This document shows positions 1,722 through 13,691 of a stretch of DNA of 13,691 bases, piece after piece. Made by a program: the position numbers and the translations under genes. The stretch is from Actinomycetota bacterium. GTDB lineage: Bacteria; Actinomycetota; Actinomycetes; Nanopelagicales; Nanopelagicaceae. Numbering within the stretch: position 1 is the stretch's first letter; each line of letters starts with the position of its first letter. Where the stretch lies: the NCBI GenBank assembly GCA_009706135.1, contig WLRX01000012.1, positions 1 through 13,691 on the forward strand, read 5' to 3'. The notes below the pieces were generated by a model. That model was not told where the DNA came from. It was given only the letters and a program-made list of their open reading frames with translations, and did no database searches.

Positions 1722-2150
1722 ATGGACGTAGTAACACTCATCGGTCGCCTGCTATTTGCAGCGCTATTTATTGGCTCAGGCATTGGTCACTTTGCAAAGC
1801 TTGAAGCAATGACTGGATATGCAAAGTACAAGAAGCTTCCAGCTGCGAAGTTCGGAGTTCTAATCAGCGGTCTCTTCTTCTTACTCGGTGGTATTTATAT
1901 CGCAATCGGATTATGGGTTGATCTTGGTGCGCTATTAGTTGCAATCACAGTAATTCTTGCCGGAATCATCTTCCACGCATACTGGAAAGAAACTGATGCA
2001 ACAGCAAAGATGAATGAGCAAATTGCATTCAATAAAGATCTTGCACTTGGCGGAGCAGCGCTAATCCTGTTCGCACTTATCGCAAGCGGAACAATTTCTG
2101 GATCAGATTTTGGTCCACACGTAGGAAACATTAGTTTCTTCAGCAAGTAA
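1722..2150 (+). CDS. DoxX-family integral membrane protein
   Basis: A 142-residue hydrophobic protein with about four membrane segments (roughly residues 4-22, 43-63, 68-88 and 110-128). The N-terminal helix has the DoxX-type pattern RLLFAALFIGSGIGHFAKLEAMTGYAKYKKLP. The family is loosely linked to respiration, thiol/quinone redox stress or membrane-bound oxidoreductase complexes, and the biochemical role of most members is unknown. A strong ribosome site, AGAGGAGAAAC, sits directly before the ATG. It is a single-gene unit ending in the terminator at 2162-2193, with a symmetric candidate operator 55 bases upstream of the start. The family call is confident; no specific substrate can be stated. 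Confidence 0.85.
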   Translation: MDVVTLIGRLLFAALFIGSGIGHFAKLEAMTGYAKYKKLPAAKFGVLISGLFFLLGGIYIAIGLWVDLGALLVAITVILAGIIFHAYWKETDATAKMNEQIAFNKDLALGGAALILFALIASGTISGSDFGPHVGNISFFSK

Positions 2151-2196: not shown

Positions 2197-3393
2197 TTAC
2201 TTAATAACTCGCGAAAGAAAACCAGCAACGAGCAATGCAAGTATTGGAAAGATCATTGCTATAGAAATCGAAGAACCCTCTGCGAGGAATCCAATAATTG
2301 AAGGCCCAATAAAGAATCCGGATAGACCAATCACAAATGCACGTGCACTTGAGACGGATGGCGCAATTCCAGGTATGGAACTTGCTGCCAAAATAAACGC
2401 CGGAAACATTGGGGCAATTCCAAATCCAGCAAGCGCAAAACCTAAATTGATTATGACCAGTGCAAATAATGGATGTGTATCTGAAAGAGGTACAGCAATT
2501 GCAATACTTGAAGCCCAACCAATTCCACCAATTAAACCGGCAATCAATACGAGTTTTCTTGCTCCAAAGTGATTCATGGCGCGATCACCGAGGAATCGAG
2601 TAACAATCATGGCAAGTGCAAAAGATGCATATGCGGATGCATTAATTCCTTTACGGACACCCATCTCATCGCGAAGTAATAGAGCGCCCCAATCACTTGC
2701 AGCGCCTTCGGCAATTAAAGAACCCAGAAGTCCAAAACCAAGAAACCATAGAGAACGGACTTTGCTACCAAACAAAGGAATTTTTGCCTTCGTTACATCA
2801 GCTCCTCCATCATGATTGTCTAATTCACTGGGTAACAAGTAATGGATCACTCCCAAAAAGAAAACAGCAGACAACAGGGCAACAGAAATCAGATTGACTT
2901 GAGGCGAGACAAAATTTGCAATCGAACCGCCGAGAATCGTGGTTAAAAAAGCACCTAAACTCCACATGCCATGAAAAGAAGACATGCTTCTTTTGGACAT
3001 AATATTTTCAAGGGCAACGGCTTGAACACTGACGCATAGATCTGTACCCGAGTAACCAAAACCCACTATAAATAATGAGATAGCTAGGACTATTGGATTA
3101 AAAGAGAACGCAACGCCACAAATTCCAACGGACAAAATCATGGTAGTAAATCTCATCACATCACGTGAACCAAACCGATGTATATATCTACCTGCTAATT
3201 GAGCACCTGTTATTGAACCTAAGGAACTACCAAGTAAAACTAACCCGAAACCAGAATTCGATAAATTATTGGCGTCCTTAATTTCAGGTATTCGCGCAAC
3301 CCAGCACATAGACACAATTCCAAGCAAAGCGAATGAAGCCCAGAGGGCTCTTCTAGATTTTAGGGCTACTTCCTGAAATGGATGCGCTACCAA
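2197..3393 (-). CDS. MFS transporter (YbjJ/FucP-like 12-helix permease)
   Basis: A 398-residue protein with about 12 hydrophobic helices. The N-terminal segment has ARIPEIKDANNLSNSGFGLVLLG, then a motif-A-like loop GRYIHRFGSRDVMRF, resembling the YbjJ-type branch of the major facilitator superfamily. The probable start is a TTG at 3393, the only start codon between the upstream in-frame stop and helix 1. No strong ribosome site precedes it. It overlaps the 3' end of the oxidoreductase gene by seven bases, which implies translational coupling. It is the last gene of the seven-gene operon and ends at the bidirectional terminator. Because the divergent operon already encodes a high-affinity ABC importer, this carrier may instead export a by-product or bring in a related substrate. 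The direction of transport cannot be read from the sequence. Confidence 0.85.
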   Translation of the reverse strand: MVAHPFQEVALKSRRALWASFALLGIVSMCWVARIPEIKDANNLSNSGFGLVLLGSSLGSITGAQLAGRYIHRFGSRDVMRFTTMILSVGICGVAFSFNPIVLAISLFIVGFGYSGTDLCVSVQAVALENIMSKRSMSSFHGMWSLGAFLTTILGGSIANFVSPQVNLISVALLSAVFFLGVIHYLLPSELDNHDGGADVTKAKIPLFGSKVRSLWFLGFGLLGSLIAEGAASDWGALLLRDEMGVRKGINASAYASFALAMIVTRFLGDRAMNHFGARKLVLIAGLIGGIGWASSIAIAVPLSDTHPLFALVIINLGFALAGFGIAPMFPAFILAASSIPGIAPSVSSARAFVIGLSGFFIGPSIIGFLAEGSSISIAMIFPILALLVAGFLSRVIK

Positions 3394-4394
3394 TTTACAG
3401 ACTCAAGTATCGCCTCATCAGATATCTCAGAAAAATCTATCGTTTGTGCATATGAAAACCACAGTTTTTGTTCAATAGAAAACGATTGCGTTCGGCGCAC
3501 TGAGTCCAAGAATTCTTTCGAAGAAATCCCTAGGTCGGAAAGTCTATGACGGGTACCAGCTTTTTCGATGATGTCTTTTGCGCCATCAAAATTATTGCCT
3601 TGAAATTTTGACATTACCAAAACTCCCAGAGACACAAGTTCGCCATGCGCAATTGTTCTGCCGGTTACTTCTTCGAATGTGTAAGCGAAAAAATGCTCGC
3701 TGCCTTCTTCAAATCTTGCGTGTTTCATTTCGTGACAGCGCCATCCAATATCTCTATGCAATTCCATCAACCTTCTTAAACCATCATCTGTCTGTGCTTT
3801 GACACCTGGTGCGCATTCAGCAAGTTCAGCAAGATACTGAAGTGAGATCTCTGGAGACTCCGACGTCCAGCCGAATTCATCCTTGTTTTTTTCGTGTGCG
3901 TACTTCCAATCAAACCAAGCAGTATGACAAGCAAGCACATCTCCGATACCACTAGTTACCATTGATTCAGGGGCTGCTCTAAATAAATCAAAATCTACTA
4001 AGACAAGATCTGGCACCGCATCGCCGTCATAAATAACTCCACCTTGTTCACGTAGAGCACTCATTCGCGTAAAGCACGCGTCAACAGAGGGAATAGATGG
4101 AATTAAAGTTAATGGAAGCTGGCGGCGCCAATGCACCCACTTGGCCGTGTCCATGGCAGAGCCGCCACCTAATCCAACAACATGTACACCTGGAACTTCG
4201 TTTGCTAAATCATCTAGATATTTTTTCGAGAGCTCTTTGGCCCCCACAACAAATTTTGGCTGATTCGTTACATCTTTCTCGATTAACTCCCAAGGTTCTT
4301 TGTGAGTAATCAGAATGTAATCACCCAATGAATTCAGATAAGCGGAACAAATATTCGAACCGTACTTAACATTTGAGCCTTGAGCCTGAAACAT
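3387..4394 (-). CDS. Glycerol-1-phosphate dehydrogenase-like (AraM/EgsA type) metal-dependent oxidoreductase, copy 1
   Basis: 335 residues of the group-III iron-type alcohol dehydrogenase / G1PDH fold. The nucleotide-binding loop GLGGGSAMD is at about 74-82. The metal triad of the family is intact: Asp152 (SGIGDV), His234 (EGSEH) and His250 (IAHGE). Family members reduce or oxidise sugar- or polyol-phosphate alcohols with NAD(P) and Zn or another metal. The best-known reaction is DHAP to sn-glycerol-1-phosphate. The gene begins immediately after the PIG-L stop (TAAATG, no gap), behind a strong ribosome site GGGGGAGAAG. A paralogue is at 6924-7940; the two share the metal motifs but differ in much of the rest, suggesting different substrates. 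The setting, a sugar operon with no archaeal-type lipid gene nearby, argues against a membrane-lipid role. The family call is strong and the substrate unknown. Confidence 0.82.
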   Translation of the reverse strand: MFQAQGSNVKYGSNICSAYLNSLGDYILITHKEPWELIEKDVTNQPKFVVGAKELSKKYLDDLANEVPGVHVVGLGGGSAMDTAKWVHWRRQLPLTLIPSIPSVDACFTRMSALREQGGVIYDGDAVPDLVLVDFDLFRAAPESMVTSGIGDVLACHTAWFDWKYAHEKNKDEFGWTSESPEISLQYLAELAECAPGVKAQTDDGLRRLMELHRDIGWRCHEMKHARFEEGSEHFFAYTFEEVTGRTIAHGELVSLGVLVMSKFQGNNFDGAKDIIEKAGTRHRLSDLGISSKEFLDSVRRTQSFSIEQKLWFSYAQTIDFSEISDEAILESVNW

Positions 4395-5222
4395 TTACTT
4401 CTCCCCCAATTGACTTAAAGTCGATACCACGCCGGCATCATCAATCACTCTGTAAATCTCAGAGTATTTTCTGGATCGTGCATTCTTTTGACGGGTTTGT
4501 CTAACGATCATTTCAGCGAAAAAACGTACATCGTTATTCACGTTTTGAAAGAATTCATCGAGTGAGACTCCTGCTGTGCGCCCCTTAAGCCACCACTGTC
4601 TGGCCATATTGATTAGCATGGTCCTATGTAATGACGTTGCCACAATTAACTTATCAATAAATACGGTGACATCTAAATAATGAGTAGGTTTAGCAACTTC
4701 TCGCCCGAAATACCAACGAGCAACCGGCAAAAAAGGTTCAATCCCAACAGGTTGCGATCCTGGATGTTTATCAAATCCAGAAGTCCACATTGCCTCTGCC
4801 ATCGAAACTGCGACTTTTTTGTGATCCTCATTGTCTTCGTAAAGATATGAATCAGGATCAAACGTTAGTACCAAATACGGTTGCTCATCTCGAATTATAT
4901 CAATGTACTTTGTTCGTAAACTGACTTCGGAATAATCACCAAGGCGATCAGTATCTAGATTCAAATCAATAGTCTTACTAATGCCAAGATGTTTCATTGC
5001 AAGATTGAATTCTTTGGTATTTGTCTCAATTGTTGCGCTTTCATTCAAATTAAAACTATCCCATCGATCATTTGTTGCCCGCACAACTGTAACTTTCCAG
5101 CCAGCCTCAATTAGGGAGGCAACTCCACCACCGCAAAAAAGCAACAAATCATCTGCATGAGCGATCGAAATCAGAGCCACTTTATTTTTTGTTTCAGGAA
5201 GGCTTAATTCTTGAAGTTTCAT
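4395..5222 (-). CDS. PIG-L/LmbE-family N-deacetylase
   Basis: 275 residues. The N-terminal motif AHADDLLLFCGGG (residues 21-33) corresponds to the family AHPDDE signature. His22 and Asp25 are the expected zinc ligands, Asp24 the expected general base, and His134 in NEDHKKV the third ligand. Two usual residues differ: Pro to Ala and Glu to Leu within the signature. Family members remove acetyl groups from GlcNAc-containing molecules, as MshB does for GlcNAc-inositol in mycothiol synthesis and BtrD does for acetylated paromamine. The start ATG overlaps the ROK stop as TAATG with an AAAGGTG ribosome site, and the next gene follows without a gap. Beside a kinase and a SIS deaminase, it most likely removes an acyl group from the imported amino compound. 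The zinc site looks complete, so it is probably active; the exact substrate is unknown. Confidence 0.83.
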   Translation of the reverse strand: MKLQELSLPETKNKVALISIAHADDLLLFCGGGVASLIEAGWKVTVVRATNDRWDSFNLNESATIETNTKEFNLAMKHLGISKTIDLNLDTDRLGDYSEVSLRTKYIDIIRDEQPYLVLTFDPDSYLYEDNEDHKKVAVSMAEAMWTSGFDKHPGSQPVGIEPFLPVARWYFGREVAKPTHYLDVTVFIDKLIVATSLHRTMLINMARQWWLKGRTAGVSLDEFFQNVNNDVRFFAEMIVRQTRQKNARSRKYSEIYRVIDDAGVVSTLSQLGEK

Positions 5223-6127
5223 TATGGGCGCGCACCTTTACCAATTTTGTATTGAGCCAACATAGTTGCGCCAATCGCTCCGGATAGATCACCTATCGTA
5301 GAAGCTTGAATGTTTTTTGTTTCGCTAAAACCTCGATGTGTTTCTAATCTTTCGACTAGGTAGTTTTGGAAACTACTCCACTTGTCAATAATTGAGCCAC
5401 AAATGACAACTACTTCGGGTCTTGAAATCACTAAATGCGTAATCAATCCATCTGCAATCCGGTGGCCAAATTCTTGCCATGTTTTCTCAGATAAATTGGA
5501 AAAATCACAACGACCATCAACTAATGTAAACTCGGATCGAGATTTTGCGATTTCCTCTAACGCCAGGCGCGATGCACTCATCTCCCAACATGCATCCAAA
5601 CCGCAGTAACAAGGGGCAGAAATGTTTGGAACAGAAATATGACCGCCTTCTGGATGCTGCCCATCTAAAGCTCGGATTGGTTTTCTATCTTTAAACAAAG
5701 AAACACCCAGCCCTGTCCCAAGAGTTATACATAGAACAGATGAGTGATTTTTTCCAGCACCTAGAATCGCTTCCGACAAACCCGCTGCATTTGCATCGTT
5801 ATCTATCCAGACTTCTCGATTAAGCAAACTGGAAAGTTTTCCACCTAGGTCTAATCCCGAAAATTGAGGCAAGGTATCTGGGTTATCAATCACACCTGTA
5901 ACGAGATTCACGGGACCTGTTGAACCAATTCCAATTGCCTCTATATCTTTCAAATCAGGAACGTTTTTTGTTATCCAAGCACCTAGGAGTGAAATTGAAT
6001 CTTCATTTGAAACAGCCGCAAAACTTGAAGTTGCGATTTTTGATTCTTGAATTACTTCATGCTTTTCATTTGCCACAACTAAACGAATACCAGTGCCACC
6101 TATATCTAGGCCGATAAAATTAGACAT
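5222..6127 (-). CDS. ROK-family sugar kinase
   Basis: 301 residues with all ROK landmarks: the ATP loop DIGGTGIRLV (8-17), catalytic Asp111 in DNDANAA, the phosphate loop LGTGLGVS (136-143), EGGH (160-163), and the structural zinc motif CYCGLDAC (Cys173, Cys175, Cys180, with His163). ROK kinases phosphorylate hexoses and N-acetyl or free amino sugars such as glucose, GlcNAc, ManNAc or allose. There is no N-terminal helix-turn-helix, so this is a kinase rather than a ROK repressor. It starts four bases after the DeoR stop with a poor ribosome site, so translation is probably coupled, and its stop overlaps the PIG-L start. The product may be the phosphorylated sugar acted on by the SIS enzyme and sensed by DeoR. 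Substrate inferred from context only. Confidence 0.88.
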   Translation of the reverse strand: MSNFIGLDIGGTGIRLVVANEKHEVIQESKIATSSFAAVSNEDSISLLGAWITKNVPDLKDIEAIGIGSTGPVNLVTGVIDNPDTLPQFSGLDLGGKLSSLLNREVWIDNDANAAGLSEAILGAGKNHSSVLCITLGTGLGVSLFKDRKPIRALDGQHPEGGHISVPNISAPCYCGLDACWEMSASRLALEEIAKSRSEFTLVDGRCDFSNLSEKTWQEFGHRIADGLITHLVISRPEVVVICGSIIDKWSSFQNYLVERLETHRGFSETKNIQASTIGDLSGAIGATMLAQYKIGKGARP

Positions 6128-6131
6128 GGCG

Positions 6132-6893
6132 TTATTTTGTCACTCTTAAGTCAATTCCTGCCTTACGAAAATGTTCCCTGTAACTCTTATCGATTGCAGA
6201 ATCTGTGACTAAAATTGCAATTTCCTTTAATGCACAAACTTTTCCAAAAGCTTTCACGCCGAATTTGGATGAGTCCGCTGCAACGATAGTTCGGGTTGAA
6301 GCATGATGTGCCGCACGCTTAATCATTGCGTCATCAGAATTCCATTCGGTCAATCCATAAATAGGTTCTAAGCCAGAAGCGGTCATAATCATTTGATCAA
6401 AATGATAGTTCCTCAAAGTTTCGAGAGCCGCGGGCCCAATAAGAGACTCTTCGCCCTTGCGTACAAACCCACCGATAACCATCAACTGAATCTTAGGAGC
6501 AGCGCGTAAAACATCAGCAACGCGAAAACTTAGTGCACAAACTGTTAATTCTCGTTCAATTAATTGTTTAGCGATTGCAACACCAGTGGAACCACCATCT
6601 AAAACGATTGTCTCTCGATCATTGATGAGTGTCGCAACATATTTGGCAATCTCATTTTTAGCTTTAGACGCAATTTCACTTCTAATGGCAAAAGCTGGTT
6701 CGAACGAGCCACTTACCCCTTTTATTGCAAAGCCTTTTTCACGCCGAAGTAAACCAAGTCGAGATAAATGTTCAATGTCTCGGCGGATTGTCATTTCTGA
6801 CACTTTTAAGACTTTTGTTAGATCGGAAATCAAAACTCGTGCTTCGTCGTTGACGATATTCAAGATTTCTTGAAGTCGATCATCGGGTTTCAT
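6132..6893 (-). CDS. DeoR-family transcriptional repressor
   Basis: 253 residues. A DeoR-type winged helix-turn-helix occupies about residues 6-58 (LQEILNIVNDEARVLISDL, then VSEMTIRRDIEHLSRLGLLRR). The C-terminal DeoRC sugar-phosphate sensor follows, with IVLDGGSTGVAIAKQL (about 95-110) and MVIGGFVRKGEESLIGP. Members usually repress sugar operons and are released by a phosphorylated sugar intermediate. An AGGAAA ribosome site precedes the ATG. The gene sits inside the operon it probably controls, third after the SIS and oxidoreductase genes, so autoregulation is likely. A dyad in the divergent region (9094-9109) is one possible binding site. Which intermediate is sensed cannot be seen. Confidence 0.9.
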   Translation of the reverse strand: MKPDDRLQEILNIVNDEARVLISDLTKVLKVSEMTIRRDIEHLSRLGLLRREKGFAIKGVSGSFEPAFAIRSEIASKAKNEIAKYVATLINDRETIVLDGGSTGVAIAKQLIERELTVCALSFRVADVLRAAPKIQLMVIGGFVRKGEESLIGPAALETLRNYHFDQMIMTASGLEPIYGLTEWNSDDAMIKRAAHHASTRTIVAADSSKFGVKAFGKVCALKEIAILVTDSAIDKSYREHFRKAGIDLRVTK

Positions 6894-6923
6894 TGGTTTC
6901 CTAAATGTAATGGTGCTGAGATT

Positions 6924-7940
6924 CTAACCTTTAACCCACTCTTCGATTTCATCTAACTGCTTGTCAGTGATTTCAGTTTCCGTTGCAATTGTGTACCATA
7001 AATTCTTGGATTCCTTTGAGTAATCAATCATGTGCTTTAAGCCGTTACGTACATCTGTCCAAGTAATATCCATATCCTCTGGCTGATATGCGACACCCAT
7101 CTCATCTAGTTTGCCTTTAATGAATTTGGGATCATTGTTTTGAAGATAACTCATGATAACCACACCTAAGGAAACGATTTGACCATGCAAAAATGGCTTA
7201 TGAATCAAATGTTCAAGAGAATAAAAGAGAGTGTGCTCTGAACCTTCAATTGGCCGTGGATTCCATCCAGCATTGTTAAATGCTGCCCCGCCCCAACGCA
7301 ATGCATTCATCAAAGTTTGGACACCTCGATCATTGACCGCGTTGATGTCTGAAGTTGAATTGAGAACTGAGTTTAAAACTTCGGAAGCTTGAGATACCCA
7401 AAAATCGTCGTATGGCCACTTCTTTTCGCACTTCCCTACTTTTGTTGCGTACTCCCAATCCCATTTCGCTGTGTAATAACAAACGATGTCACCAACACCA
7501 GATCGATTGATGTACTCAGGTGCGCTTTGAATGACGTCATAATCTACATAAATCATCTCGGGGATGGCATAACCAACATATTTAAGAATTCCATTGTCGC
7601 GAACGGCAGATCGATGTCCAAAGGGTGCATTTACTGACATCGAGGTTGGACATTGGAATAGTGGCAAGTGTTTGCGCCACGCAAAATACTTGGCTACGTC
7701 GATTGCGACACCACCGCCGATTCCAACAATCGCCTTAACATCAGGAAGTTCTTTTAATGTTTTTTCAAGATCCTTGATTTCTAGTGAATCAACCAAGTGA
7801 ACAAAGGTCTCCTTAGAGTCAAAATAATGAGAAAAACGTGGCCAAAGGTCCTTATTTGATACGACTAAGAAAGGTGGATTAATAATTTTTGGTAACTCTG
7901 CATACAGCTCTCTTCCGTATGCGACATCAAATAATTGCAT
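6924..7940 (-). CDS. Glycerol-1-phosphate dehydrogenase-like metal-dependent oxidoreductase, copy 2
   Basis: 338 residues, a paralogue of the protein at 3387-4394. The nucleotide loop is GIGGGVAID (73-81), with Val where copy 1 has Ser. The metal triad is Asp151 (SGVGDI), His236 (EGSEH) and His252 (FLHGQ). Both copies share the block T-A-x-x-D-W-[EK]-Y-A after the first ligand and HG-[EQ]-[LI]-VSLGV around the last one. The inserted region between ligands one and two and the C-terminus are clearly different. A ribosome site AGGAAGAGG precedes the ATG, 21 bases after the SIS stop. The family oxidises or reduces phosphorylated polyols or keto-sugars; homology to dehydroquinate-synthase-like folds is remote. 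The role here is probably a redox step on an intermediate downstream of the SIS enzyme. Confidence 0.8.
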   Translation of the reverse strand: MQLFDVAYGRELYAELPKIINPPFLVVSNKDLWPRFSHYFDSKETFVHLVDSLEIKDLEKTLKELPDVKAIVGIGGGVAIDVAKYFAWRKHLPLFQCPTSMSVNAPFGHRSAVRDNGILKYVGYAIPEMIYVDYDVIQSAPEYINRSGVGDIVCYYTAKWDWEYATKVGKCEKKWPYDDFWVSQASEVLNSVLNSTSDINAVNDRGVQTLMNALRWGGAAFNNAGWNPRPIEGSEHTLFYSLEHLIHKPFLHGQIVSLGVVIMSYLQNNDPKFIKGKLDEMGVAYQPEDMDITWTDVRNGLKHMIDYSKESKNLWYTIATETEITDKQLDEIEEWVKG

Positions 7941-7961
7941 TAGATCCTCTTCCTAGTCGAT

Positions 7962-8990
7962 TTACAGAGTGTCAGTAACTTTTGACGCGTAGGCAAAACT
8001 ACCTGCCTGAACGCCGGTTCTTGCAGCTAGCGCAAAACTTAATGTTTGAAAACTTAATGTGTCACAAATGCGAGCGTCAGTGCCCTTGCGATCAGGTGAA
8101 GGAAGTTTTGTGCCTATGCCTTTATCGCCAATCCACGTTACAGAAGATCCTGAAGCAACTAATTCTGAAGCAAGCTTGATGTTGAGTGAATTGTGAGGTT
8201 CTGTTCCATGATCAAAGAATGTGATACTCAAATCTGGACCAGCTATTTCAATAGGACCATGTCTAAATGATGCAGAAGTAGTTCCTTCAATTGACATTTT
8301 TGCGGCTTCTTTAAGAATTAGTCCAGCTGTTTGTGAAGACGCGCCAGCTACTCCCCTACCCACGCAAACATAATTCTTTTTGTACGGCATATCCTTTTCG
8401 GCATTTTCTATTTGCGAATCAAGATCAGCAATGTACCTATCAATGGAATCTACTGTTCGTAGCAAAGTCGAACGTGAATCTTCGTAAGATTTAGAAACTT
8501 CGGAAAACACCAACTTCATGGCAGCAAGAGTGTTCAAGTAAGTTTTAGTACTCACTGTTGCCTCTGGACCAGCCTTTAGATCAACCAAATAATCGGAATG
8601 CTTTGCAAGATTACTTTCAGGATCATTTGTAATACCAAGTACGTCAACCTTGGAGAGGTCGAATTGCTTGAGAACTTGAGTTACTTCAGCGCTTTCACCC
8701 GATTGCGAGGTTAGACACAACAGAGTTCCTGGTGAGAGCAACCCAGCACCAACATCGATGAGCTCAGATGCTGGTAGCCACCAAGCAGGCAATCCCATTC
8801 GTGTGAAGGTTTCCCAGGTTTCATAGGATGCAAAATGACTGCTTCCCATGCCCGCAAAAACAATTCGGGATCTCTTTGAAACATCAAGGTCGCGGCCTAG
8901 GGCATGCATATCGTCGGCTCGAACCATGAATTGAGCGAGTTTTTCTGCTTGCTCATTGACGTTCAGGCGATATGGCGAGGTAACTGACAC
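7962..8990 (-). CDS. SIS-domain sugar-phosphate isomerase/deaminase (GlmS isomerase-half / NagB-II / AgaS type)
   Basis: 342 residues from the GTG at 8990. I chose this start because GGAGGG lies six bases upstream (8998-9003) and the protein then begins MSVTSPYRLNVNEQ, typical of the family; a GTG at 9035 has no ribosome site. Two SIS domains are present. The first has GMGSSHFASY and the phosphate loop TSQSGES (about 94-100). The second has GRGVAGASSQTAGLILKEAA. The GlmS isomerase residues have counterparts: Glu228 in LKE, His244 in FRHGP, and Lys337 in the C-terminal YASKVTDTL. The N-terminal glutaminase domain of GlmS is absent, so it should run as an isomerase/deaminase, releasing ammonia from an amino-sugar phosphate or deglycating a conjugate, as NagB-II, AgaS and FrlB do. 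It is the first gene of the minus-strand operon and divergent from the ABC importer. Exact substrate unknown. Confidence 0.85.
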   Translation of the reverse strand: MSVTSPYRLNVNEQAEKLAQFMVRADDMHALGRDLDVSKRSRIVFAGMGSSHFASYETWETFTRMGLPAWWLPASELIDVGAGLLSPGTLLCLTSQSGESAEVTQVLKQFDLSKVDVLGITNDPESNLAKHSDYLVDLKAGPEATVSTKTYLNTLAAMKLVFSEVSKSYEDSRSTLLRTVDSIDRYIADLDSQIENAEKDMPYKKNYVCVGRGVAGASSQTAGLILKEAAKMSIEGTTSASFRHGPIEIAGPDLSITFFDHGTEPHNSLNIKLASELVASGSSVTWIGDKGIGTKLPSPDRKGTDARICDTLSFQTLSFALAARTGVQAGSFAYASKVTDTL

Positions 8991-8997
8991 GTAAAGC

Positions 8998-9003
8998 CCT
9001 CCA
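8998..9003 (-). promoter_or_regulatory. Ribosome binding site that fixes the SIS gene start
   Basis: GGAGGG on the minus strand, followed by CTTTAC and then GTG at 8990. This is the best Shine-Dalgarno sequence in the area and argues against the longer start at 9035. Confidence 0.75.
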
Positions 9004-9035
9004 TGAGAGTGAGATCCAGCGAGATAATTTCTCAC

Positions 9036-9093
9036 AGATTTGATGAAAATACTACCATTTTTTTAACATTCCAAGTAGCATCCATCTGCCTAC
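9036..9093. promoter_or_regulatory. Divergent promoter region of the two sugar operons
   Basis: The 140 bases between the SIS start (8990) and the binding-protein start (9131) must hold both promoters. A leftward candidate is TTGGAA (9074-9069) and TATTTT (9051-9046) with 17-base spacing. A rightward candidate is TTGATG (9040-9045) and TAACAT (9064-9069) with 18-base spacing. Each element matches 3-4 of 6 consensus positions. The two candidates overlap face to face, so one repressor could control both operons. These are eye matches only. Confidence 0.4.
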
Positions 9094-9109
9094 GTGAGGA
9101 AACCCTCAC
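9094..9109. promoter_or_regulatory. Dyad GTGAGG-AAAC-CCTCAC: candidate operator or leader hairpin
   Basis: Perfect 6-base inverted arms with a 4-base centre lie 21 bases before the binding-protein start and just upstream of its ribosome site. It could be a DeoR operator or a short hairpin in the mRNA leader. No second copy was noticed elsewhere in the window. Confidence 0.4.
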
Positions 9110-9130
9110 TTCGAAAGGAAAGGATCCGCG

Positions 9131-10393
9131 GTGCTCAATTCCAAAACAATTAGACGTTTTGCTGGATTAGCATCAGTTTCATTACTTCTTGCTGCGTGCT
9201 CTAGCGGGGGAACTGACTCTGAGGCTTCTGGTGAAATAAACGTTTTTCTAATTTCTAGCCCTTCCTCAACTTCTATTCAAAGTTTTATTCCCGGCTTTGA
9301 AGCAGAAACGGGAATCAAAGTTAATGTTTCTGAAACTCCATACGGAGAAGCACATCAGAAGCAACTACTTTCATACCAGCAAAAAGCTGGTGCATACGAT
9401 GTAGCTCAATTTGATAACTCATTCTTGATGCCATTCTGTCAAGCACAGGCAATGGCACCACTTGATAGTTATTTGGGTGATTCATCTGAATATGACATTG
9501 CTGATTTTGGTCAAAGCCAACAGGATTACGGAAAGTGCAATGGTGAAACATTAGGTTTGACACTGAGCACTGAACCAATGATCCAGTGGTATCGAACAGA
9601 TATCTACGAAAAATTAGGACTCACACCAGCAAAAACTTGGGATGAGTACTACGACAACGCTAAAAAAGTTCAAGCCGCAGGTTACGGTGGTCAAATCATT
9701 GGATTTGGACCAAACGTTTCATGGTGGTGGATGACTATGGTGTGGTCATTCGGTGGAAAACTTTATGACGATGCACTTAATCCAACTGTAAATAGCAAAG
9801 AAGCTATTGCTGCCACTGATTTCCTTAAGAAATTGATGACAGTTTCCCCAAAGGGTGCTTCAACAGCAAACTCTGATGAAGTTACTAGCAAATTCCTGGG
9901 TGAAGATATTGGCGCCATGATCAATTACTCCGGTTATTACGGAAGCGTTCTTGATAAGACAATTAACAAGAACGAAGGCAAAATCGGTACAGCGCCGATG
10001 CCTAAGGGATCAGCAGATATCACTCACTTAGCTGGCTGGAACATTGGTATTCCAAAAGATGCCAAGAATCCAACTGCGGCATGGAAGTTCCTCGAATACG
10101 TTCTAGGAAAGTCTAATGCGAAGAGCTACCTTGAATCAGGTGCTGCTGCAATTGGCCGTAAGTCAATTACAACAAACGCAGAACTTCTCGCGAAGTTCCC
10201 TTACCTATCACAACTTGAAATTCCTTCAAGTTCACGCATTGAACGTTATCCTCAAATCGCTGTGTGGCCAGAGTTTGAAGTTGCTGCAATTGATGCAGTA
10301 ACTCAAGTACTCAACGGCAAGAGTGATTCGACTAAAGCAATGACGGCTCTAAATGAGAAATTGAAACCAATTCTCGCTAAAGAACCTAAGTAA
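9131..10393 (+). CDS. ABC transporter sugar-binding lipoprotein (family 1 extracellular solute-binding protein)
   Basis: 420 residues from a GTG start, with AAAGGAAAGGA six bases upstream. The N-terminus is a lipoprotein signal peptide: KTIRR, a hydrophobic stretch, then lipobox LLAAC with Cys23 as the lipidated residue. The mature protein has the family-1 layout, with INVFLISSP, GFEAETGIKVNVSETPYGE, YDVAQFDNSFLMPF, the WYRTDIYEKLGLTPAKTWDEY segment and a C-terminal VWPEFEVAAIDAVTQVL-type helix. Such proteins capture mono- or oligosaccharides, polyols or amino sugars outside the membrane for CUT1 permeases. It is the first gene of the plus-strand operon, and two matching permeases follow. Several aromatic residues (for example the WWWM cluster near residue 197) would suit stacking on a sugar ring. 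The exact ligand cannot be told. Confidence 0.92.
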   Translation: MLNSKTIRRFAGLASVSLLLAACSSGGTDSEASGEINVFLISSPSSTSIQSFIPGFEAETGIKVNVSETPYGEAHQKQLLSYQQKAGAYDVAQFDNSFLMPFCQAQAMAPLDSYLGDSSEYDIADFGQSQQDYGKCNGETLGLTLSTEPMIQWYRTDIYEKLGLTPAKTWDEYYDNAKKVQAAGYGGQIIGFGPNVSWWWMTMVWSFGGKLYDDALNPTVNSKEAIAATDFLKKLMTVSPKGASTANSDEVTSKFLGEDIGAMINYSGYYGSVLDKTINKNEGKIGTAPMPKGSADITHLAGWNIGIPKDAKNPTAAWKFLEYVLGKSNAKSYLESGAAAIGRKSITTNAELLAKFPYLSQLEIPSSSRIERYPQIAVWPEFEVAAIDAVTQVLNGKSDSTKAMTALNEKLKPILAKEPK

Positions 10394-10409
10394 GAAATAA
10401 ATTAATAAA

Positions 10410-10472
10410 CCTATTGGCCTAGTTAGAAAGTTCTTAAATGCCCAAACGCATGAAACTAACTAGGCCAATAGG
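10410..10472. repeat. 17-bp perfect inverted repeat spanning the permease start codon
   Basis: Arms CCTATTGGCCTAGTTAG (10410-10426) and CTAACTAGGCCAATAGG (10456-10472) are exact reverse complements, separated by 29 bases. The loop contains both possible starts of the permease gene (ATG at 10438 and 10450), and the right arm codes for permease residues 7-12. No T-run follows the right arm, so it is not a classic terminator. Likely roles are protecting the binding-protein mRNA 3' end and damping permease translation, giving an excess of binding protein over permease, as hairpins between malE and malF do. The repeat is seen directly; the role is inferred. Confidence 0.8.
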
Positions 10473-11310
10473 CCAATTTACATTCGGAGCCTGGGCGCTC
10501 CTATCGTTAACCGTGTTGATACCGATTTTTTACGGCATCTACATTTCATTTCTTGATATAAAACTCTCTTCATTCTTACCGCCGCAATTTGTTGGACTTG
10601 ATAATTACGTTGCGGCTTTTAAAGCTCCCGAAACTTGGGCAACGCTGAAGATCACTCTGGCTATGATGATTTTAGGCATGCTAGTTCAAATTCCTTTAGG
10701 CATGGCACTTGCCCTTGTGCTGCACCGTAATTTAAAGGGAAGCAAAGTATTTAGTTCCATCCTAATTACTCCGATGTTACTGACTCCCGTGGCGGTTGGT
10801 TTAACTTTTAGGTTCATGTTCGATACGGACCTGGGGATTATCAATTGGGTTTTGGAATCTTTCGGAATCGATAAAATTAATTGGCTTGGCCAACAAACAA
10901 CTGGAATTTTGGCGGTTGTACTAGTTGACTCCTGGCAATCTGTCCCATTCGTTATGTTGTTATTAGTTGCTGCTCTGGGATCAATCTCTCCACAACTCTA
11001 CGAAGCCGCCAGTATCGATGGGGCGACATCACGTCAAACTTTCTGGAAAATTACTTTGCCCTTGATTACACCAACACTACTTGTAGTAGTCATGATAAAA
11101 ATCATGGATTTCTTAAAACTTTTTGACACTCTCTTTATGTTAACTCGCGGTGGGCCCGGAAATGAAACCACAACATTGGGTTTATGGACTTATAAAACCG
11201 GCTTCATATTTCTTGAGTTCTCGCGTGCTGCTGCTTTAGGTGTCTTGATAATGATTATAAGTGCGCCTGTATATTTCTTATGGCGCCGTTCGACGAAGGA
11301 AGTTAAATGA
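10438..11310 (+). CDS. CUT1 sugar ABC transporter permease, MalF-like
   Basis: 290 residues with about six membrane helices (first near residues 16-36). The binding-protein-dependent permease EAA loop is present: EAASIDGATSRQTFWKITLPLITP, around residues 185-208, which docks the ATPase. The layout and the YVAAFKAPETWATLKITLAM segment resemble MalF/UgpA proteins. The start could be ATG 10438 or, four codons later, ATG 10450; AGAAAG just upstream of 10438 is a weak ribosome site. Both starts lie in the loop of a 17-bp inverted repeat, so access by ribosomes may be controlled. The stop overlaps the next permease start (ATGA). The partner ATPase is not visible in this window. Confidence 0.92.
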   Translation: MPKRMKLTRPIGQFTFGAWALLSLTVLIPIFYGIYISFLDIKLSSFLPPQFVGLDNYVAAFKAPETWATLKITLAMMILGMLVQIPLGMALALVLHRNLKGSKVFSSILITPMLLTPVAVGLTFRFMFDTDLGIINWVLESFGIDKINWLGQQTTGILAVVLVDSWQSVPFVMLLLVAALGSISPQLYEAASIDGATSRQTFWKITLPLITPTLLVVVMIKIMDFLKLFDTLFMLTRGGPGNETTTLGLWTYKTGFIFLEFSRAAALGVLIMIISAPVYFLWRRSTKEVK

Positions 11311-12137
11311 AAATAACCAAAAAGGGTAAATTTTCATCTTATTTAGTTTTGATTTTTTCTTCATTTCTAGCACTCTTTCCACTTTTCTGGACTTTTAGTA
11401 CATCAATTAAAGATCGAGTTGATACATACACTCTCCCTCCTAAATTCTTTAATTTCACCCCCACCTTTAAAAATTACACTTCACTTTTCCAAATTGATGC
11501 CTTCCCAAAAATCTATTTGAATACACTTTTTGTAACCATTATGAGCACCATAATCGTTCTAGTTATCGGAGCATTGAGCGCCTACGCGATCGCCCGTAGA
11601 TCTAGCTTTAGGGGTAGATCTTCCTTAGAAGCACTTATGATTGCGGTTCGTGCACTTCCTGGAATCGTTTTACTTCTTCCACTTTACAGATTGAGTTCTT
11701 TTCTTGGACTTTACGATTCTCTATGGGCACTAATTTTTATTTATGCTGGATTTAACTTGCCATTTGCAATTTGGCTTCTCACATCATTCTTTAGACAGAT
11801 TCCGATTGAACTAGAAGAAGCCGCAAGAGTAGATGGTGCCTCAAATACACGAATGTTTGTCAAAATTTTGCTCCCTTTGGCAATGCCAGGAATAGTTGCA
11901 ACTGGAGTTTTTATTGCGCTGCTTTCATGGAATGAATTCTTAATTCCAGTCATCATGGCTGGAGAAGGTTCGAAAACCCTGCCCGTTTTTGTTGCAAGTT
12001 TTATATCCAATAGAACTTTAGATTGGGGACCGATGGCTGCTGCAGCCACAATTGCACTAATTCCAATTGTGATTTTTACTATTTTTATTCAAAAGTACCT
12101 GGTAGCAGGACTTTCGAGTGGAGCAGTGAAAGAATGA
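11307..12137 (+). CDS. CUT1 sugar ABC transporter permease, MalG-like
   Basis: 276 residues, about six helices, with the EAA loop EEAARVDGASNTRMFVKILLPLAMPG at about 171-196. The N-terminal FPLFWTFSTSIK and the NTLFVTIMSTIIVLVIGALSAYAIAR segment are typical of MalG/UgpE/AraQ proteins. It pairs with the preceding permease to form the membrane channel; the ATGA overlap suggests coupled translation and equal amounts. Its own stop overlaps the ATG of a 10-codon mini-ORF leading to the aminotransferase gene. It probably uses a shared MsiK-like ATPase encoded elsewhere, or one encoded past the right edge. Confidence 0.92.
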   Translation: MKITKKGKFSSYLVLIFSSFLALFPLFWTFSTSIKDRVDTYTLPPKFFNFTPTFKNYTSLFQIDAFPKIYLNTLFVTIMSTIIVLVIGALSAYAIARRSSFRGRSSLEALMIAVRALPGIVLLLPLYRLSSFLGLYDSLWALIFIYAGFNLPFAIWLLTSFFRQIPIELEEAARVDGASNTRMFVKILLPLAMPGIVATGVFIALLSWNEFLIPVIMAGEGSKTLPVFVASFISNRTLDWGPMAAAATIALIPIVIFTIFIQKYLVAGLSSGAVKE

Positions 12138-12166
12138 CAACCGAGAGAATGGATCGAATAAGGTGA
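12134..12166 (+). CDS. Possible 10-codon coupling mini-ORF
   Basis: ATG at 12134 begins MTTERMDRIR followed by TGA. The ATG overlaps the stop of the permease (ATGA), and the TGA overlaps the GTG start of the aminotransferase (GTGA). Translation could pass from permease to aminotransferase through this short frame, which would explain why the aminotransferase has only AAGG right against its start. It may also be chance in a 25-base spacer. No function is suggested for the peptide. Confidence 0.3.
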   Translation: MTTERMDRIR

Positions 12167-13410
12167 GTTCACAACTAGCAGCACTTGGTGGAAAAAAAGT
12201 TCGAGACACTTCTTTCCCTGCTTGGCCACATTATGATGAAACTGAACGTGAAGCGTTGAATCGTGTTTTAGATTCTCGAAATTGGTGGGCAAATCATGGC
12301 GTAGAAGTTAAGGAATTTGAAAAAGAGTGGAGTGAATACACAGGCGCAACAGCTTCATTCGCAGTCACAAACGGAACTCACACTCTTGAAGTAATCTTTC
12401 TCGCCCTGGGAATTGGTGATGGCGATGAAGTCATTGTCGCTGATTGGTCTTTTTTAGCAACAATCGGAGCAATTCTCACTGTTAATGCAATTCCAAAAAT
12501 TGTTGATGTCGATCCTTTAACAGGAACTATCGATGTTGCTCAAGCGGAAGCAGCAATAGGTCCTAAAACTCGAGCAATTGTCTGCGTGCACGTGGCTGGT
12601 TCAATGTCGGATATGGATGCATTAACTGCAATCTGTAAAAAACACAATATTGCTCTTATTGAAGATAGTGCGCATGCGCATGGTTCACGTTGGAAAGGCG
12701 AACATGCCGGAACAATTGGAGATGCTGGATCGTTTTCTTTTCAAGCTTCAAAGTTGATGACATCTGGCGAAGGTGGAGTAATCACCACCAAAAGGGAAGA
12801 TCTGATTCCATTATTTAAATCTTTTGTAAATTGTGGACGTGGTGATGGTATTTGGTATTACAGACACCTGCGCCTTGGCGGAAATTACAGACTCAGCGAA
12901 TGGCAGGGAGCAATCCTGCGCACTCAATTAAATCGTTTCCCAGAGCAACAACAAAATCGCGGTAATAATGCAAACTGGTTAAATTCTGAAATTGCAAAAA
13001 TCCCTGGATTCAAACCTCAAGGTCGCTACGCAGGTTGCACGGAACAAGGAAACTACTGCTACGTCGTTGAAGTAGATTCGACTCTCATCTCTGGTGCGAC
13101 TCGTGATCAAATACGCCACGCACTACTTGCAGAAGGTATTCCACTTACAACATCGTATCCACCATTACATCGACTAGAGATGTTCAAGGATCCAAGTGGA
13201 CTTGCCCCGCGCCTTCGGGGTGAGGTAACCAAAATCAGATACAACGAACAGAGTTTCCCTGTAACTGATTATTTAGCGGCGAATACTCTTTGGTTTAATA
13301 CAGCAGTGCTGATGGGTTCACGCGATGATGCCAACTCTGTTCTTCAAGCTATTGCTAAGATTTCTGAACTTGGTGCAGAAGTCGCAAAAATAGATGCCCC
13401 TTCTTGGTAA
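12163..13410 (+). CDS. DegT/DnrJ/EryC1-family PLP aminotransferase, AHBA-synthase/StsC-like
   Basis: 415 residues from a GTG. The PLP site is intact: Asp168 in IEDSAHAHGSRWKG binds the pyridine ring, and Lys197 in SFSFQASKLMTSGEGG forms the Schiff base. The start MSSQLAALGGKKVRDTSFPAWP is normal for the family. The AHAHGSRW and SFSFQ-x-x-KLMT-x-GEGG forms resemble AHBA synthase and L-glutamine:scyllo-inosose aminotransferases (StsC/BtrR) more than cell-wall or LPS sugar members. Such enzymes transfer an amino group to or from a keto-cyclitol or 3-keto-sugar. It lies directly after an importer and before a Gfo/Idh oxidoreductase. A keto/amino conversion on the imported compound, possibly in the deaminating direction, or a kanosamine-like NtdA/NtdC step is therefore possible. 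No deletion or frameshift seen. Confidence 0.88.
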   Translation: MSSQLAALGGKKVRDTSFPAWPHYDETEREALNRVLDSRNWWANHGVEVKEFEKEWSEYTGATASFAVTNGTHTLEVIFLALGIGDGDEVIVADWSFLATIGAILTVNAIPKIVDVDPLTGTIDVAQAEAAIGPKTRAIVCVHVAGSMSDMDALTAICKKHNIALIEDSAHAHGSRWKGEHAGTIGDAGSFSFQASKLMTSGEGGVITTKREDLIPLFKSFVNCGRGDGIWYYRHLRLGGNYRLSEWQGAILRTQLNRFPEQQQNRGNNANWLNSEIAKIPGFKPQGRYAGCTEQGNYCYVVEVDSTLISGATRDQIRHALLAEGIPLTTSYPPLHRLEMFKDPSGLAPRLRGEVTKIRYNEQSFPVTDYLAANTLWFNTAVLMGSRDDANSVLQAIAKISELGAEVAKIDAPSW

Positions 13411-13433
13411 ATGAATAGATCAGGGAGGTATTA

Positions 13434-13691
13434 ATGACGCTTCGAGTTGGAATCGTCGGTGGATCTTTCGCGGGAACATTGCACGCTGAAGGATGGATAA
13501 AAACTGGGCGCGCACAAATTATTTCCGTGGCTTCACCTTCAAAATCAACTCAAGAAAATTTTCAAAATCGATTTAGTTGCAAGGCTTATTCAGATGCCTC
13601 TGAAATGTTAGAAAAAGAAGAATTAGACGTAATTTCATTGACATTACCAAATGTGTTTCACTACGAATTATCTTTACTCGCCCTAAGCAAA
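13434..13691 (+). CDS. Gfo/Idh/MocA-family NAD(P)-dependent oxidoreductase (3' part missing at window edge)
   Basis: My translation from the ATG at 13434 gives 86 residues that stay open to the right edge. It begins MTLRVGIVGGSFAGTLHAEG, a Rossmann dinucleotide-binding loop (GIVGGSFAG). It continues to LDVISLTLPNVFHYELSLLAL, equivalent to the family's hallmark ATPNxxH strand-helix after the second nucleotide contact. The catalytic EKP segment (usually near residue 95) lies just beyond the window. A strong ribosome site, CAGGGAGGT, precedes the ATG, 23 bases after the aminotransferase stop, so the genes are co-transcribed. Family members oxidise sugars, inositols and amino-cyclitols at a hydroxyl group, often at C3. 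It would supply or use the keto group needed by the upstream aminotransferase. Confidence 0.85.
   Translation, partial: MTLRVGIVGGSFAGTLHAEGWIKTGRAQIISVASPSKSTQENFQNRFSCKAYSDASEMLEKEELDVISLTLPNVFHYELSLLALSK

Follow-up and report, generated by a model that had tools for sequence, protein, structure and literature searches.

Gfo/Idh family oxidoreductases and DegT-type aminotransferases act in pairs in the making of kanamycin (KanD2/KanS2) and gentamicin (GenD2/GenS2), where C3" of a sugar is oxidized and then aminated. Thermococcales archaea use a deacetylase-first route for chitobiose and N-acetylglucosamine (GlcNAc) in which a PIG-L family diacetylchitobiose deacetylase (Dac) acts with a kinase and a SIS protein (GlmD). 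The kanosamine needed for rifamycin comes from RifL and RifK together with a kanosamine kinase and a phosphokanosamine isomerase; glucose-6-phosphate is the substrate of NtdC/NtdA (PMC8788734). We describe here a divergent gene cluster in a 13,691-nucleotide stretch of DNA (the window), the full length of contig C16 in an assembly of 865 kb (70% complete) from the family Nanopelagicaceae (acI). The cluster, a real and rare unit, encodes a sugar importer, a DegT/DnrJ/EryC1/StrS aminotransferase (DegT), a Gfo/Idh oxidoreductase (Gfo), a PIG-L deacetylase, a ROK family protein, a SIS protein and two oxidoreductases, G1A and G1B (collectively G1), that resemble sn-glycerol-1-phosphate dehydrogenase (G1PDH). 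We favor, at a probability of roughly 0.4, the reading that the cluster is induced by its substrate and breaks down an imported N-acetylated 3-amino sugar (kanosamine-like or a 2,3-diamino hexose), either free or as part of a small glycoside.

A candidate catabolic route and its described counterparts

Seven minus-strand genes, in the order MFS transporter, G1B, PIG-L, ROK, DeoR, G1A and SIS, diverge from a plus-strand run of five, namely, the solute-binding protein (SBP), permease 1, permease 2, DegT and Gfo. Adjacent genes are separated by -7 to +30 bases in the minus run and -4 to +44 bases in the plus run. An earlier note, made from the sequence alone, had given the gene list and the divergent layout correctly, as open reading frames (ORFs) and family matches confirm, with the qualification that Gfo comprises only 86 codons here.

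The route that we infer, from substrate and inducibility to the nature, order and direction of each reaction, would begin with uptake of the amino sugar or glycoside by the importer. PIG-L would strip the N-acetyl group, DegT would move the ring amino group onto a keto acceptor, leaving a 3-keto sugar, and Gfo would reduce the ketone to an alcohol, which would be the chemistry of GenD2/KanD2 (also of RifL/RifK and NtdC/NtdA) in reverse. The ROK protein would phosphorylate the sugar, and the SIS protein would turn the hexosamine phosphate into a ketose phosphate by isomerization or deamination. A further alcohol or ketone step, dependent on NAD(P) and metal and at an unspecified position, would fall to the G1PDH-like proteins. 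A 2,3-diamino sugar is an attractive candidate substrate in that DegT and SIS, the two tools for amine removal, would then both be used. The reverse, catabolic direction is suggested by the importer, which is genetically linked to the enzymes, by the AgaR-like repressor and by glycosidase neighbors in relatives, along with the lack of phosphatase, nucleotidyltransferase and glycosyltransferase genes (and of polyketide genes) among the window ORFs examined.

The Gfo and DegT pair is shared with the kanamycin and gentamicin systems, and an intact Gfo homolog has GenD2 and KanD2 as its closest relatives of solved structure, but their identity to this homolog is only 26-28%, and the pair lies outside an antibiotic cluster, accompanied by importer, deacetylase, kinase, SIS and G1PDH-like genes. 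The cluster also contains the same kinds of enzymes (oxidoreductase, DegT-type aminotransferase, sugar kinase and sugar-phosphate isomerase) as RifL/RifK/RifN with phosphokanosamine isomerase and as NtdC/NtdA/NtdB; it differs from these kanosamine-making systems in its import and repressor genes, and the phosphatase or UDP-sugar gene was not seen in it. Common to the cluster and the Thermococcales route are a PIG-L deacetylase, a SIS deaminase-like protein, a kinase and an ABC importer, whereas the window has no glucosaminidase gene, contains the extra G1, DegT and Gfo genes, and encodes a SIS protein that scores 48.8 bits against a GlmD model with a cut-off of 580. No description of such a cluster, or of kanosamine as a carbon source, was found in the literature searched, a weak negative given the thin coverage of subscription journals; the available part of a freshwater cultivation paper had no bearing on the cluster (PMC12381374).

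Protein families and conserved residues

The closest solved relative of DegT is 3-amino-5-hydroxybenzoate (AHBA) synthase (1b9h, E 8.5e-66), followed by 2-deoxy-scyllo-inosose (DOI) aminotransferases, with 5w71 and 2c7t as the next distinct enzymes; the match to NtdA is much weaker (E 3e-21). K197, which we take to be the lysine that binds pyridoxal phosphate, is invariant in all four aligned proteins, and by these features DegT is probably of the AHBA synthase/DOI aminotransferase type. The truncated Gfo is 86% identical over 84 residues to the product of an intact 342-aa ORF in the related locus L023, and it is this protein whose closest solved matches by both sequence and fold are GenD2 and KanD2. 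According to its structure title, KanD2 was crystallized with 3"-deamino-3"-hydroxykanamycin A, presumably the glucoside whose C3" hydroxyl is oxidized prior to amination. Because the identity to GenD2/KanD2 is low, action of Gfo at the C3 position is a family-level guess. The affinities of these two proteins lend support to the kanosamine- or aminoglycoside-like substrate suggested in the earlier note.

Four haloarchaeal plasmid loci (L034, L035, L037 and L038) each combine DegT with one to six Gfo/Idh genes, some also with PIG-L, sulfatase, TIM-barrel or heparinase genes, and no G1 match was found in these four; they are suggestive of a possible separate catabolic use of DegT. The DegT neighborhoods covered also included one from Chloroflexota and one from Streptomyces. 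On a Gemmatirosa plasmid (L082 7400-12688), a Gfo relative with 38% identity adjoins genes for a GMC oxidoreductase, a gluconate-2-dh3 protein and a 3-keto-disaccharide hydrolase domain protein.

Among the six solved matches of PIG-L, two are named diacetylchitobiose deacetylase. Residues H22, D24, D25 and H134, which we take to form the active site, are invariant in all seven aligned sequences, a feature in keeping with Dac enzymes. The ROK protein, in which no helix-turn-helix (HTH) domain was matched, has a glucokinase as its best solved match. The DeoR regulator scores 165.8 bits against the AgaR model, below the cut-off of 260. For the SIS protein, matches to the GlmS-type (E 9.3e-29), NagB-II (E 1.3e-20) and GlmD (E 5.5e-13) models are all under cut-off (74 versus 430 bits for NagB-II; GlmD as given above). 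Its SQSG motif and residues E233, H249 and K342 (numbering from base 9005), presumably equivalent to the GlmS/NagB-II catalytic residues, are invariant in all six aligned sequences. The absence of NagB-I noted earlier is consistent with the lack of PF01182 matches in the organism's own 70% complete assembly, in which other GlcNAc genes were not searched for.

G1A and G1B share with sn-glycerol-1-phosphate dehydrogenase and glycerol dehydrogenase the Fe-ADH/G1PDH fold and the D, H and H residues that we assume to be metal ligands. Against the NCBIfam G1PDH model NF002022, G1B and G1A score 97.7 and 137 bits, far under the cut-off of 413, and therefore the label "G1PDH-like" in the earlier note holds at the superfamily level but does not extend to G1PDH proper. 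The S-x-D-G stretch of the solved structures 5fb3, 3ce9 and 4rgq is replaced by S-x-[DN]-A in all 14 sequences of our alignment (A1) and in 19 of 20 G1 homologs (the exception being G895). In a phylogenetic tree, the G1A clade (4 sequences) is supported at 100/100 and the G1B clade (9 sequences) at 100/98, and the two appear to be old paralogs. A G1PDH-like activity may be expected of both. Searches for plasmid relatives of G1 returned 8 and 85 records, none spanning 80% of the query, and the one annotated neighborhood examined (H1) was uninformative.

Table 1. Features of the cluster, with coordinates in the window
Feature	Coordinates	Strand	Evidence and remarks
MFS transporter	2197..3393	-	Pfam MFS_1 E 7.7e-22; final gene of the minus run; 7-base overlap with G1B
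G1PDH-like oxidoreductase G1B	3387..4394	-	NCBIfam G1PDH model, 97.7 bits
PIG-L family N-deacetylase	4395..5222	-	Pfam PIG-L E 1e-17
ROK family protein, probably a sugar kinase, 301 aa	5222..6127	-	Pfam ROK E 1e-46
DeoR family regulator	6132..6893	-	Pfam DeoRC and HTH_DeoR; nearest NCBIfam model AgaR
G1PDH-like oxidoreductase G1A	6924..7940	-	NCBIfam G1PDH model, 137 bits
SIS protein, GlmS/NagB-II type	7962..9035	-	NCBIfam GlmS-type E 9.3e-29; alternative GTG start at 8990
Divergent intergenic region	9006..9130	.	nearly the same in L023
Solute-binding protein (SBP) of the importer	9131..10393	+	Pfam SBP_bac_1 E 1.4e-44
Importer permease 1	10438..11310	+	Pfam BPD_transp_1 E 2.9e-20
Importer permease 2	11307..12137	+	Pfam BPD_transp_1 E 4.2e-22
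DegT/DnrJ/EryC1/StrS aminotransferase	12163..13410	+	Pfam E 2.7e-90; closest solved relative AHBA synthase
Gfo/Idh oxidoreductase, N-terminal 86 codons	13434..13691	+	Pfam GFO_IDH_MocA E 4.3e-14; truncated by the contig end

No ABC ATPase gene was seen within the window, and an Rfam scan of the window yielded nothing at gathering scores. The divergent region shows 93% mean column identity to its L023 counterpart over the aligned stretch; no sigma-70-like site was found in 8900-9300, and this region of the window yielded no inverted repeats under the settings applied (L023 alone gave two weak pairs). Outside the cluster, positions 3-1615 of the minus strand carry a gene for a small DUF6504 protein and, after it, the beginning of a gene for a PHP-domain DNA polymerase III alpha (DnaE-type), an arrangement that we associate with imuB/dnaE2 mutagenesis cassettes. 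A stand-alone DoxX-family membrane protein is encoded between the polymerase gene and the cluster (1722-2150, plus strand).

Related loci and their distribution

We compared 18 G1-bearing loci (the window, L023, L024, G025, G077, G086, G092, G114, G172, G196 twice, G472, G567, G631, G749, G895, G936 and G986), leaving out G969 and the remnant in G029. G1 is the thread that ties these loci together, since they were found through it; because several contigs are short, absences at these loci are soft. PIG-L is encoded near G1 in 10 of the 18 (the window, L023, L024, G025, G086, G092, G114, G172, G472 and G986) and a GlmS/NagB-II-type SIS protein in 8 (the window, L023, L024, G077, G086, G092, G172 and G749). 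Both DegT and Gfo lie within 18 kb of G1 in 7 of the 18 (the window, L023, G172, G472, G749, G936 and G986) and within 8 kb in five of those seven; in G472 and G986, two members of one genus, G1 is separated from DegT by about 9 kb and from Gfo by about 18 kb. G567 has a more distant DegT, and Gfo was not matched there.

The nearest named relative, L023 (contig CANHNH010000022.1 of a Candidatus Nanopelagicaceae assembly), carries the same cluster at 74-95% protein identity. ROK is missing between its DeoR and PIG-L genes, and its contig stops after G1B, so that the MFS gene cannot be seen; the intact Gfo gene is followed by one that by eye resembles a gene for a secreted beta-propeller protein. 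In another class, G172 (L030) encodes SBP (61% identity), permeases (48 and 56%), PIG-L (38%), a single G1 as far as found (39%), Gfo (25%), DegT (38%) and SIS (28%), along with an HTH-bearing ROK-type repressor and a MalK-type ABC ATPase. G749 (L061), from another family of the window's own class, has ROK, DegT (61%), G1 (35%), Gfo (47% to that of L023) and SIS (34% identical to an acI NagB-II-like protein) in one tight run, the spacing being -4 to +9 bases when internal starts are taken. Because the set recurs in L030 and L061, the proposal of the earlier note that both halves of the cluster belong together in one pathway is supported. In G472, G1 lies near genes for glycoside hydrolase (GH) family 38, NagB-I, PIG-L, a ROK repressor, DegT, a permease, Gfo, a BadF-type kinase and a GH20-type protein.

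Several details of these loci stand apart. In G092 (L021 9109-9657 and 10921-11959), a short PIG-L accompanies a NagB-II-like SIS divided between two ORFs, through decay or assembly error. The protein encoded next to PIG-L in G472 (L029 16800-18002) and G986 (L063 1492-2667) matched no Pfam family and by eye recalls the "neutral/alkaline ceramidase" annotation of the haloarchaeal DegT loci. In G196 (L027 and L031), two G1-like genes adjoin genes that by eye resemble those for D-threonine-aldolase-like, DapA-like and RidA-like proteins, which suggests other roles for the wider G1 family.

Across 151 genomes of the family, including the window's own, G1 was matched in 7, SBP in 8 and both in 6 (Fisher p 1.3e-8, uncorrected for relatedness). 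The two SBP-only genomes have SBP at contig ends, beside a PIG-L fragment in G048 and with the contig beginning inside SBP in G098. The G1-only genome, G029, retains a broken remnant (L022 8785-9204 and 9123-9542), in which partial G1B and permease 2 sequences lie beside full-length matches to NagB-II-like SIS, SIS_2, SDR and NagA-like proteins, apparently a copy of the acI locus in decay. Neither G1 nor SBP was matched, at the thresholds used, in any of the 19 same-genus genomes listed, and the cluster is therefore an accessory trait. In 396 genomes of the phylum, own included, G1B was found in 4 (E 1e-30) and SBP in 2 (E 1e-60), and the A1 profile of G1 at E 1e-50 found matches in 5 genomes among 394 of the class and in 5 among 148 of the order to which G472 belongs; around G172, G1B was found in 1 of 17 family genomes and 1 of 27 class genomes, in each case G172 itself. 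DegT at E 1e-85, a threshold that may miss relatives at 37-39% identity such as those of G936 and G172, was confined to the own genome among 148 class genomes. A DegT profile (A4) built from the window, L023, G172 and G472 proteins matched 8 of 16 G1- or SBP-bearing genomes at E 1e-60, a co-occurrence biased by the choice of those 16 for carrying G1 or SBP; in the six best (E 7e-149 or better), DegT is within 9 kb of G1.

Weighing the catabolic route against its alternatives

A number of observations weigh against catabolism of a 3-amino sugar. Five acI loci (G025, G086, G092, G114 and L024) contain the importer, PIG-L and G1B without DegT or Gfo nearby; PIG-L and G1B there diverge from the importer, GH1 lies beside it where probed or scanned, and some of these loci also have GNAT, GntR/UTRA and SIS_2 genes. 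DegT of this kind was not found at E 1e-60 in the acI genomes G025, G029, G048, G086, G092, G098 and G114. G077 has SIS, importer, G1A, DeoR and ROK only; PIG-L, DegT and Gfo are all missing from the 20 kb surrounding G1A, and other parts of that genome hold a weaker DegT and a Gfo-like gene. In G936, where G1 is accompanied by an importer, GH2, DegT (37%), Gfo (29%) and GH4, no SIS, kinase or PIG-L was seen near G1. The kinase is not a constant member of the set because ROK is missing from the run in the near-syntenic L023 and is of the HTH-bearing repressor type in G172. Nor does G1 have an allotted place in the proposed route, and it occurs apart from the set in G631 (ROK only), G196 and G895, near which no PIG-L, DegT, Gfo or SIS partner was matched. 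The low identity of Gfo to GenD2/KanD2 counts in the same direction. The search for conserved co-occurrence that the earlier note had proposed shows the set recurring in relatives and also shows it to be modular.

Unlikely, yet the best surviving alternative, is deacetylase-first use of a GlcNAc glycoside, in which PIG-L would deacetylate, ROK would form glucosamine-6-phosphate, SIS would convert it to fructose-6-phosphate and ammonia, and G1, DegT and Gfo would treat the non-GlcNAc half, for example, through C3 oxidation for splitting. The diacetylchitobiose deacetylases among the PIG-L matches and the sub-cut-off NagB-II and GlmD matches of SIS point this way, as do the surroundings of the Gemmatirosa Gfo relative and the NagA-like, NagB-II-like SIS, BadF-type kinase, GH84 or GH3 genes beside some of the PIG-L/G1B/importer loci. 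Since the combination of PIG-L, kinase and SIS is reminiscent of the deacetylase-first route of archaea and GlcNAc-type genes adjoin some relatives, the assertion in the earlier note that the textbook GlcNAc route does not fit was too strong. For at least some members of the family, ordinary GlcNAc glycosides may be the substrate, given that in the acI loci importer, PIG-L and G1B can serve without DegT and Gfo. However, this scheme leaves the aminotransferase without a job and ROK is not in the L023 run, and the G749 run combines SIS with DegT while PIG-L is unmatched in the 20 kb read.

It is improbable that the cluster is an accessory island of two or more separate catabolic modules with different substrates, namely, SIS, G1A, DeoR and ROK as one module, PIG-L and G1B as another, and the DegT/Gfo pair. 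The occurrence of the first module with the importer alone in G077 and of the second with the importer in five loci, the apparent age of the G1A/G1B duplication and the lack of G1 and SBP matches in the 19 same-genus genomes fit such an island, whereas L023 keeps the same arrangement and a locus from another class unites importer, PIG-L, Gfo, DegT and SIS with the single G1 found. Biosynthesis of a kanosamine-like or aminocyclitol compound, with Gfo and DegT running forward and kinase and SIS acting as in the aminoshikimate supply route, is very improbable: the enzyme kinds match RifL, RifK, RifN and phosphokanosamine isomerase, and in a Streptomyces plasmid polyketide locus a Gfo-like stretch likewise comes after a DegT gene, but the biosynthetic genes listed above as missing from the window ORFs, the importer and repressor, and the glycosidases adjoining several relatives argue against it.

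Returning to the favored reading, catabolism of an imported 3-amino sugar, we tentatively suggest that the cluster represents 3-amino or 2,3-diamino sugar catabolism of a kind undescribed in the literature found, with an antibiotic-type DegT and a GenD2/KanD2-like partner running backwards and a step by a new G1PDH-like subfamily, in members of an abundant freshwater group. Kanosamine and diamino hexoses are parts of antibiotics and of the lipid A and O-antigens of many bacteria. If the reading is correct, such sugars would feed some freshwater actinobacteria of the acI type, and a catabolic twin would exist for the C3 amination chemistry known from antibiotics. The G1PDH-like subfamily, so far recognizable only as alcohol/glycerol dehydrogenase, gains a defined genomic setting.

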